Below are positions 14,841 to 17,313 of a stretch of 35,768 bases of DNA, in pieces. Position numbers and translations under genes: made by a program. The notes under the pieces were generated by a model, which saw only the letters and a program-made list of their open reading frames with translations, had not been told where the DNA came from and ran no database searches. How positions within the stretch are numbered: the stretch's first letter is position 1; every line of letters begins with the position of its first letter. Origin of the DNA: Crocinitomicaceae bacterium (GTDB lineage Bacteria > Bacteroidota > Bacteroidia > Flavobacteriales_D > Crocinitomicaceae); assembly GCA_022425625.1 (NCBI GenBank), contig JAKMFD010000001.1:1-35768 (forward strand). Direction: 5' to 3'.

Positions 14841-15750
14841 TTCGCTCTCCTATTCTTAATTTCGCGCTTCGGGCACGAGAATTCATTTTAACTTCATCTT
14901 CATCGGGCGCCACAGGCTTCCTTGTTACCTCTGTAAAAGGTTTAATTGGATTGCCATAGAAATCCTTTTCAAGCGCACCTTCAAGGTTTCCTTTTTTAAG
15001 AAAATTCTTTACAAGCCTGTCTTCTAGTGAGTGGTACGAGAGCACTACTAACCTACCTCCAGGTGCAATTACTTTTTCACACTGTAAAAGCAAATCTTCA
15101 AGCACCTTAATCTCCTGATTCACCTCTATACGAACTGCTTGAAATACTTGCGCGTAATATCTATTCTCTTTGAATTTCGGGGCGAAATCAGACAAAAACT
15201 TAATGAAATCTTGAGTCGTGTTGAGACGACTGGACTGACGAAACTTAACAAGCTCGTAGGCCAATCTTTTGGCATTCCTGATTTCACCATACTTTCGGAA
15301 AACTGATAACAATTCTTCTTCAGTTGATTCATGAAGTACATCTGCAGCATTTCTGGATGCAGAACCATTCATACGCATATCAAGAGCCCCTTCCTTCCTG
15401 ATAGAAAAACCTCTTGTGCCTTCATCAAATTGATGTGAGGAAACACCCAAATCTGCCAAAATGCCATCAACTTGAGTCACACCCTTTAATTTTAACTGAT
15501 TTGAAAGAAAAGAGAAATTTGATTGTATAAAATGAAAATTCGGTGCTTCCCAGACATTCCTTAAGGCATCTTTGTCTTGATCCAAAGCATACAATTTTCC
15601 CTTTGCAGACAGCTGACTATGAATTAATCGAGAATGACCACCACCACCAAAAGTAACATCAACATAAACTCCATCCGGATTGATATTCAATCCATTGATG
15701 CAAGCATCACGCAAAACAGGTATGTGGTATAAATTATTCTTTTGGCTCAT
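14833..15750 (-). CDS. rsmH: 16S rRNA (cytosine-1402-N4)-methyltransferase RsmH
   Basis: RsmH (formerly MraW) uses S-adenosylmethionine to methylate N4 of C1402 in 16S rRNA at the P site. The N-terminus HIPVLRDACINGL, the SAM-binding VDVTFGGGGHSRLI, the ADLGVSSHQFDEGTRGFS segment and the C-terminal VLSYHSLEDRLVKNFL motif are all typical. The 305-residue length is normal. It is the second gene of the dcw operon: its start lies 17 bases inside mraZ and its stop overlaps the FtsL-like gene by eight bases. The mraZ-rsmH pairing is widely conserved. Confidence 0.97.
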   Translation of the reverse strand: MSQKNNLYHIPVLRDACINGLNINPDGVYVDVTFGGGGHSRLIHSQLSAKGKLYALDQDKDALRNVWEAPNFHFIQSNFSFLSNQLKLKGVTQVDGILADLGVSSHQFDEGTRGFSIRKEGALDMRMNGSASRNAADVLHESTEEELLSVFRKYGEIRNAKRLAYELVKFRQSSRLNTTQDFIKFLSDFAPKFKENRYYAQVFQAVRIEVNQEIKVLEDLLLQCEKVIAPGGRLVVLSYHSLEDRLVKNFLKKGNLEGALEKDFYGNPIKPFTEVTRKPVAPDEDEVKMNSRARSAKLRIGERNG

Positions 15751-16195
15751 CCAAGTCTCCCATTACTTCATTTGCTAAATCGGCAAAGTCCGTTATGTTT
15801 TCTTCGATCATACTGAAGTACTTGGATTTATCCCATATTTCTACACGGTCATTATATGCTATAAGCATAACCTCTTGCCCTAAACCAATTCTTTCGGCGT
15901 GAGCCGTCGGTATTAAAACACGACCTGCGTTATCAAGTGCAATTTGTTTTGCGCCTTGGTGAAACAAACGATAAAACATTCGATTCTTCGGTTTAAACAA
16001 GTTCATCTGAGACAATCGCTCACTCATCTTTTCCCAATCCATTATTGGATATAAAGTGAGACAATCTTCAAAACCCTTGTTTAACATAAAATCACGCTGG
16101 GCAGTCGGAGCCAACTGCTTCCTAAGACCTGCAGGGAATAGAAACCTACCCTTGCTATCTAACTTAACCTCAAATTCTCCTACTAATCCAGCCAT
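15734..16195 (-). CDS. mraZ: Transcriptional regulator MraZ
   Basis: MraZ is a ring-forming DNA-binding protein built of two SpoVT/AbrB-like half-domains; it controls dcw transcription by binding direct repeats upstream of its own gene. The two copies of the motif are plain: LDSKGRFLFPAGLRKQL (12-28) and LDNAGRVLIPTAHAERIGL (87-105). The length of 153 residues is usual. It is the first gene of the operon, preceded by a good Bacteroidota-type promoter and by GTGG-containing repeats that are candidate operators (16229-16242 and 16347-16360). Autoregulation is inferred from those sites and from work on MraZ in other bacteria. Confidence 0.97.
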   Translation of the reverse strand: MAGLVGEFEVKLDSKGRFLFPAGLRKQLAPTAQRDFMLNKGFEDCLTLYPIMDWEKMSERLSQMNLFKPKNRMFYRLFHQGAKQIALDNAGRVLIPTAHAERIGLGQEVMLIAYNDRVEIWDKSKYFSMIEENITDFADLANEVMGDLDEPKE

Positions 16196-16228
16196 AACGA
16201 AACTATGAGTAAAAATAATGGAATTTTA

Positions 16229-16242
16229 CCACTTTTTACCAC
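16229..16242 (-). promoter_or_regulatory. Candidate MraZ operator, copy in the mraZ leader
   Basis: On the minus strand this reads GTGGTAAAAAGTGG, two GTGG cores spaced ten bases apart, within GGTGGTAAAAAGTGGTAAAA. The ten-base period and AAAGTGG core resemble the AAAGTG(T/G)N3 repeats reported for Mollicutes MraZ and the TGGG direct repeats of E. coli. It falls about 50-60 bases downstream of the predicted mraZ start site, inside the leader. An exact copy in reverse orientation lies at 16347-16360. Binding is inferred, not shown. Confidence 0.6.
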
Positions 16243-16292
16243 CTAAAATCAAATTGTTGATAACTTATAACGTTAGTTTATTTTTTTTGTTT

Positions 16293-16324
16293 CAAAAATA
16301 CAGCGTTATGATAGAAAGAACAAA
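16293..16324 (-). promoter_or_regulatory. Promoter of mraZ / dcw operon (Bacteroidota type)
   Basis: On the minus strand TTTG (16324-16321) is followed after 20 bases by TATTTTTG (16300-16293), an exact match to the Bacteroidota -33 (TTG) and -7 (TAnnTTTG) elements. Transcription would start near 16288, leaving a leader of about 92 bases before the mraZ ATG. A 12-base palindrome, ATTTACGTAAAT (16326-16337), lies right beside the -33 element on its upstream side. The promoter lies between the two inverted candidate MraZ operators. Confidence 0.72.
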
Positions 16325-16325
16325 C

Positions 16326-16337
16326 ATTTACGTAAAT
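16326..16337. promoter_or_regulatory. 12-base perfect palindrome beside the mraZ -33 element
   Basis: ATTTACGTAAAT is a perfect inverted repeat without spacer, one base from the TTTG -33 element of the dcw promoter. It could be a binding site for a dimeric regulator. It could also be chance in an AT-rich stretch. No known regulator is assigned. Confidence 0.35.
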
Positions 16338-16346
16338 ATTACATAA

Positions 16347-16360
16347 GTGGTAAAAAGTGG
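16347..16360 (+). promoter_or_regulatory. Candidate MraZ operator, copy upstream of the EamA gene
   Basis: GTGGTAAAAAGTGG on the plus strand, within AAGTGGTAAAAAGTGGATAA, is an exact 14-base copy of the minus-strand site at 16229-16242. It is about 60-70 bases upstream of the predicted mraZ start site and about 45 bases upstream of the -7 box of the divergent EamA gene. MraZ might therefore act on both genes or bridge the two sites. Confidence 0.55.
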
Positions 16361-16404: not shown

Positions 16405-16412
16405 TAATTTTG
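16405..16412 (+). promoter_or_regulatory. -7 box of the EamA transporter gene
   Basis: TAATTTTG is an exact TAnnTTTG box. It ends four bases before the GTG start codon, so transcription would begin at or next to the start codon. A clear TTG at the -33 position is not seen, so the promoter may be weak or activator-dependent. Confidence 0.5.
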
Positions 16413-16416
16413 CACG

Positions 16417-17313
16417 GTGAAAATTTCATTAAAGTATTGGATGCTATTGCTTTTGCTCTCCGTTATCTGGGGTAGCTCTTTTATTCTGATGAAAACAGCA
16501 ATGTACGACTCCGAGGGCCACTCAATATTCACATCCAATCAAGTTGCTACATTGCGTATTCTTATCGCAAGCATTGCCCTTTTGCCTTTTAGCATCTATG
16601 CAATTCGAAAAATTAATCTTAAACGAGACTTGGGGCACTTCATCATAGTCGCTTTGTGTGGGAATTTATTTCCGGCTTTTCTATTCACTTATGCGGAAAC
16701 TGGCATCTCGTCAGGCCTCGCAGGAATGTTAAACAGCACGACGCCTATTTTTACAATAATTATTGCACTTGTTATTTTCAGGGACAAAATGAGTAAGCGC
16801 CAATTTTCAGGAGCCTTCATAGGCTCTATTGGTATTGGAATTCTAGTCTATTTCGGGAAAAAAAATTCTTTAGATGGAGAATGGATCCATATCATTAGTG
16901 TTATTTGCGCGACCCTATGTTACGCTATTAGCCTAAGCGTTATTCGCTATAAATTAGGACATTACAAATCTTTAGATATTGCTTCGATTGCATTTCTTCT
17001 GCTTTTAATACCCTCTATTTTTTTGTTTTTAACAGCGCACACTCTAGAGGCTTTTGAAAACACTCAAGAAGTGAAAAATGGCTTCATGGCAATTCTTGTT
17101 TTATCTTTAGTGGGAACCGCTCTAGCCTTGTTTATATTCAATACTATTATCAAAAACACTTCAGCTTTGTTTGCAAGCTCAGTAACCTACTTTATCCCTA
17201 TTGTTGCAGTTATTATTGGAATATTTTTCAATGAACATATTAATTTGGCTCAAATAACAGGCATGGCCGTTGCCTTAAGTGGGGTTTTTATTGCCAATTC
17301 CAAAATGCAATAA
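16417..17313 (+). CDS. EamA/DMT-superfamily transporter
   Basis: This 298-residue inner-membrane protein has two EamA repeats, each with about five hydrophobic helices. The first begins with the family's LSVIWGSSFILMKTA signature; the second half (about 150 onward) ends with VAVIIGIFFNEHINLAQITGMAVALSGVFI. The family exports metabolites or amino acids, but substrate cannot be read from sequence. The start is GTG, giving MKISLKYWMLLLLL, which fits family N-termini. An ATG eight codons later would cut into the first helix. The gene is divergent from mraZ across 221 bases carrying candidate MraZ sites. A promoter for rplU lies just after its stop, so it is probably monocistronic. Confidence 0.9.
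   Translation: MKISLKYWMLLLLLSVIWGSSFILMKTAMYDSEGHSIFTSNQVATLRILIASIALLPFSIYAIRKINLKRDLGHFIIVALCGNLFPAFLFTYAETGISSGLAGMLNSTTPIFTIIIALVIFRDKMSKRQFSGAFIGSIGIGILVYFGKKNSLDGEWIHIISVICATLCYAISLSVIRYKLGHYKSLDIASIAFLLLLIPSIFLFLTAHTLEAFENTQEVKNGFMAILVLSLVGTALALFIFNTIIKNTSALFASSVTYFIPIVAVIIGIFFNEHINLAQITGMAVALSGVFIANSKMQ

Follow-up and report, generated by a model that had tools for sequence, protein, structure and literature searches.

Opposed and helically phased arrays of putative MraZ boxes may close a DNA loop at the head of the dcw cluster in Flavobacteriales and in lineages of other orders

Introduction

Why should a bacterial mraZ gene carry upstream of it two copies of one 14-mer that face in opposite directions? 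The question is raised by a stretch of 35,768 nucleotides from a Crocinitomicaceae bacterium (hereafter the window, meaning the whole stretch analysed), in which mraZ is separated from a divergent transporter gene by a region carrying both copies. MraZ heads the division and wall (dcw) cluster in very many bacteria, and the reason for its rings and its mode of control are poorly understood. It represses its own operon where it has been studied (PMC8475190, PMC7761207) and forms ring oligomers, an octameric toroid being cited in PMC7761207; oligomers are also known from structures (1n0e and others). In the MraZ operators described so far, the boxes are direct repeats gathered in a single cluster close to the mraZ promoter (PMC7761207, PMC8475190). 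In Burkholderia cenocepacia, boxes of 7 nt plus 3 nt follow one another at 10-bp steps (PMC7761207, PMC8475190), and MraZ did not bind the intergenic DNA between -386 and -136, which is its upstream half (PMC7761207). A widely conserved, phase-locked second operator would give a reason for the multivalency of MraZ.

Sequences and methods

The mraZ gene was located in relatives and its upstream DNA was read, giving 135 regions from 64 genera in which the zone from -300 to -90 was scored for a distal array. The nearest named relatives are metagenome-assembled genomes (MAGs) of Crocinitomicaceae/Flavobacteriales. A further sample of the class held about one genome per family, 67 of them with a readable mraZ upstream region. 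Genome-wide counts are pattern searches of the 2.30-Mb assembly. The distance D separates the last proximal core from the inner core of the distal array. Its periodicity was assessed against a smoothed null by a circular test to which each cluster of each family contributed a single value. Values of D above 160 bp (165, 172, 176 and some of 198-241) were excluded from the main test as possibly due to chance.

Results and Discussion

The 14-mer pair and its locus

The features of the locus are as follows (coordinates in the window, strand, description).

15734-16195, minus: mraZ, 153 aa, heading the dcw cluster (Pfam PF02381, 99.9 bits, in two stretches)
16209-16217, minus: probable core-promoter -7 element TATTTTTAC, between mraZ and the proximal array
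16229-16242, minus: proximal array of putative MraZ boxes, GTGGTAAAAAGTGG (exact match; boxes 16239-16242 and 16229-16232)
16249-16252, minus: TTGA, a degenerate third box that keeps the 10-bp step (consensus NTGN, offset -20 relative to the last box)
16255-16263, minus: TTWTNMACA element, TTATCAACA, in fixed register with the proximal array
16289-16293, minus: GAAAC, a G[AT]AAC element between the arrays, fixed relative to the proximal array
16293-16324, minus: possible second promoter TTTG-N20-TATTTTTG in the inter-array stretch, from sequence; its -7 element would be 16293-16300
16347-16360, plus: distal, opposed array of putative MraZ boxes, GTGGTAAAAAGTGG (boxes 16347-16350 and 16357-16360)
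16405-16412, plus: probable -7 element TAATTTTG of the EamA gene
16417-17313, plus: divergent EamA-family transporter gene (Pfam PF00892, 121.8 bits; from the ORF list)

The preliminary description of this DNA had reported two exact, opposed copies of the 14-mer separated by 104 bp, each with two GTGG cores at a 10-base step. Coordinates and strands agree with that report, and the cores and their step are correct in both arrays. A pattern search of the 2,298,874-bp genome, a count that the same description had proposed, returned exactly two copies of GTGGTAAAAAGTGG, which are these opposed copies upstream of mraZ. Relaxed to GTGGN6GTGG, the motif has 21 occurrences genome-wide as compared to 26 in the reversed-letter control, and hence the loose motif by itself is not special at this scale. 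It is position, orientation and conservation that lift the 14-mer pair far above chance.

The product of mraZ matches the MraZ structure 1n0e by phmmer (E 9.6e-17) and carries two DXXXR motifs, DSKGR and DNAGR. Its gene starts 34 bp from the nearer 14-mer copy, the two arrays together spanning 34-165 bp upstream of the ATG. Downstream of mraZ lie rsmH (the MraW methylase), an FtsL-like gene and then a large ORF that resembles, by eye, a penicillin-binding protein.

Conservation of the distal array

Conservation of the pair upstream of mraZ in relatives, the second check proposed earlier, is borne out. Among the 135 genomes, 108 (from 44 of the 64 genera) carry CCACN6CCAC as a distal opposed pair, whereas other CCAC-CCAC spacings in the same zone occur nearly always in 0-4 genomes, N16, which corresponds to three-box arrays, reaching 12. 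Across the same 135 regions, a same-direction pair at N6 is found in one genome and the reversed letters in none. Every genome of the family of the window with full upstream sequence has the distal pair, and both arrays are present in 75 of 76 named relatives; the cultivable Taishania pollutisoli (L327) is one of those with the pair. The distal array usually consists of two boxes on the opposite strand, about 85-150 bp upstream.

The six-base spacer of the distal pair varies among relatives (e.g. atattc, aaattc, attttA), the cores and their orientation remaining constant. Divergence of the spacer with retention of the cores argues that the motif is under selection; on these sequence comparisons, the distal array is selected and is not a product of chance. 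The same architecture was also recovered in other orders of the class, as evident from a class-wide pattern scan and from the sample of about one genome per family. The exact distal pair is absent from 53 of the 67 genomes in this family-wise sample, so that a loop would not be essential to MraZ control in general.

The proximal array and the mraZ promoter

The proximal array is kept in nearly all of 136 upstream regions and comprises 2-4 GTGG boxes at 10-bp steps; the third box, degenerate in the window, is complete in many other families. In 118 of 132 genomes, a TAnnTT element follows the last proximal GTGG at 15 or 16 bp. We take this element, like TATTTTTAC in the window, to be a -7 box of the Bacteroidetes type (consensus TAnnTTTG). 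Owing to this fixed offset, the proximal array appears to overlap the mraZ core promoter (its spacer and -33 position), i.e. it looks like an occluding operator.

The mraZ promoter had earlier been placed between the two 14-mers. A TTTG-N20-TATTTTTG site is indeed present there and is probably the promoter that was meant, but similar sites occur in just 14 of 129 genomes, and the conserved -7-like element lies elsewhere, at 16209-16217. As the main mraZ promoter, the inter-array site is therefore doubtful.

Helical phase of the array spacing

The distance D is 118 bp in the window. Over the genera, its values cluster near 85, 95-96, 107, 119, 130, 140-141 and 151 bp, with nothing seen between the groups. 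For the first set of genomes the best period was 11.2-11.3 bp (R 0.79, p<0.001 against the smoothed null), and adding back those of the excluded D values that lie below 200 bp gave R 0.75. On the complete data (31 clusters from 23 families) R reaches 0.80, a value unchanged when the family of the window is omitted; 30 of the 31 family clusters fall within 2.5 bp of a peak. A period of 10.0 bp yields R 0.34 as compared to 0.80 at 11.25 bp.

The gaps between the peaks of D had been spotted before counting, and only a test on nine further values is out of sample. When the phase was fixed on the first set and then applied to genomes read afterwards, all nine D values from new genera (109, 95, 83, 85, 106, 140, 107, 106 and 85) matched the predicted peaks to within 2 bp (V 0.81, p=1e-4), two of the families concerned (f22 and f39) having been met in the earlier pattern scan, outside the fit. 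The number of turns has changed at least 13 times on an MraZ tree. One clade of the genus of the window, with about 15 genomes, has D of 122-124, which is 4-5 bp off peak, and one named relative has D of 110.

On this evolutionary evidence, the operator spacing depends on helical phase. That integral numbers of DNA turns separate the distal array from the proximal one suggests a small loop formed by MraZ; the looping put forward in the preliminary description thereby gains strong, though indirect, support, the phase preference extending over the families sampled and being reproduced out of sample.

Proposed operator and loop

Both arrays contain at least two GTG-core boxes at steps of about 10 bp, lie upstream of mraZ and are associated with it across relatives, the boxes being the same in the two arrays by sequence. 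Their reading as MraZ boxes, already made in the preliminary description, gains support from their position, from the 10-bp step and GTG core of described operators, and from their conservation with mraZ. It is fairly likely that the two sites are halves of one bipartite operator, with the distal array as an auxiliary site that would loop to the one at the promoter. What is observed is that the arrays are present, opposed, regular in their box spacing, conserved, tied to mraZ and helically phased; from this we infer that MraZ binds and bridges them and that repression results.

MraZ bound to the proximal array would exclude RNA polymerase, since this array overlaps the core promoter. The distal array would serve as an auxiliary operator, one multivalent MraZ oligomer gripping both arrays. 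Such a bridging oligomer would close a small DNA loop and raise the occupancy of the proximal array, and the loop would tighten the autorepression of mraZ and of the division and wall genes downstream. The evidence also leans, somewhat less firmly, towards the wider statement that dcw control in Flavobacteriales and in lineages of other orders involves a DNA loop closed by ring-shaped MraZ on opposed arrays.

Other explanations of the distal array

That the distal array is an independent MraZ operator of the divergent gene (EamA here), making no contact with the proximal array, is quite unlikely. A divergent gene is present in 73 of 75 genomes, and a TAnnTTTG element is found beyond the distal array in 29 of 38 genomes of the genus as compared to 3.3 in shuffled sequence; in the window, the EamA gene probably starts at a later ATG near 16441. 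However, the divergent neighbour is EamA in most of the genus and elsewhere, judging from the sequences, a gene resembling those of alpha/beta-hydrolases, EngB or acyltransferases, and in two genomes (L033 and L329) the upstream gene is co-directional with mraZ, with no divergent ORF in the gap and the distal pair present. Moreover, the distal array lies at a loosely kept distance of 15-84 bp from the divergent -7 element, whereas its distance to the proximal array is quantised. The distal site is not confined to genomes with a particular divergent gene, and the neighbour swaps, the co-directional cases and the loose distance together establish that the distal array goes with mraZ and not with the neighbour gene. 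The joint control of mraZ and EamA suggested earlier is not supported, for the same reasons, and is rejected as a general function because the pair stays when the neighbour changes its identity or a divergent gene is missing.

An activating or architectural role of distal MraZ upstream of the promoter, through contact with RNA polymerase and with a loop that forms without tighter repression, is unlikely. Because the proximal array keeps a rigid distance to the -7 element, the phasing would look alike for contact with RNA polymerase or with proximal MraZ; yet the literature presents MraZ as repressing its own operon (PMC8475190, PMC7761207), and the arrays are alike in box type and step, as one bridging oligomer would need. 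Binding of a regulator other than MraZ to the distal array, for which the shortness of the GTGG boxes and the nearby TTWTNMACA and G[AT]AAC elements could speak, is very unlikely in view of the core and 10-bp step shared by the arrays, the identity of the 14-mers in the window and the persistence of the motif with mraZ through changes of neighbour. Nucleation of MraZ at one array and its spreading as a filament to the other is highly improbable: it would accord with the 10-bp box steps and with arrays of the same kind, but the boxes of the distal array lie on the other strand, the DNA between the arrays holds no ladder of boxes, and spreading at 10-bp steps is rejected for the poor fit of the 10.0-bp period (R 0.34 vs 0.80). 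That the pair arose by chance, or by inverted duplication of 14 bp in the recent past, has a negligible probability. The copies in the window are identical, a point in favour of duplication, whereas in relatives the distal spacer differs with cores and orientation constant, and chance is at variance with 108 of 135 genomes against 0-4 for most other spacings; both are refuted by conservation in the family and by the controls on the 135 regions.

Relation to known systems

The proposed bipartite MraZ operator resembles the MraZ operators of E. coli, B. cenocepacia and Mollicutes in its GTG-core boxes, their 10-bp steps and their location at the mraZ promoter. It differs from these single clusters in the second array, opposed, helically phased and conserved, and this putative second array is what is new here relative to described MraZ operators. 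Among the freely accessible papers searched, none was found to report MraZ looping, a second opposed array or Bacteroidetes MraZ operators.

In the loops of LacI, AraC and GalR, the auxiliary operator lies tens to about 150 bp from the main one, and the effect of spacing follows the helical repeat. The arrangement described here is similar in having a main operator at the promoter and an auxiliary operator, and dissimilar in protein fold (an AbrB-like MraZ ring) and in multi-box arrays in place of single operators, the loop here being a predicted one. In vivo fits of the lac loop gave 10.95-11.60 bp per turn as compared to about 10.5 for free DNA (PMC1762422).

If the loop is real, it would represent a looping mode for an AbrB-fold regulator and could make division-gene expression sensitive to DNA supercoiling. 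Natural spacings of such elements could then report the in vivo helical repeat of DNA, and the spacing approach may be of help in recognising further regulatory loops from genome sequence alone.

Accompanying elements

Two further elements keep a fixed position relative to the proximal array. TTWTNMACA is present in 151 of 154 genomes, its distance to the last proximal box being 30-32 or 41-42 bp in 148 of them. Its variants (TTATCAACA, TTTTCAACA, TTATCCACA and others) resemble a DnaA box and keep a 10-bp register with the proximal array; no clusters of TTWTNMACA were found around dnaA in the genome of the window and four others. G[AT]AAC occurs in 81 of 129 genomes as compared to 10 in shuffles, 74 of these at 60-62 bp from the last proximal box. 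On the distal side, the off-phase clade (L013, L015, L016, L019-L029, L180 and L184) has distal boxes of the form CCCACNNNNNCCCAC. A TGTTGAAAA-like element, which recalls the TTWTNMACA of the proximal side, lies about 14 bp outside the distal array in 28 of 130 genomes (L015, L019-L029 and others).
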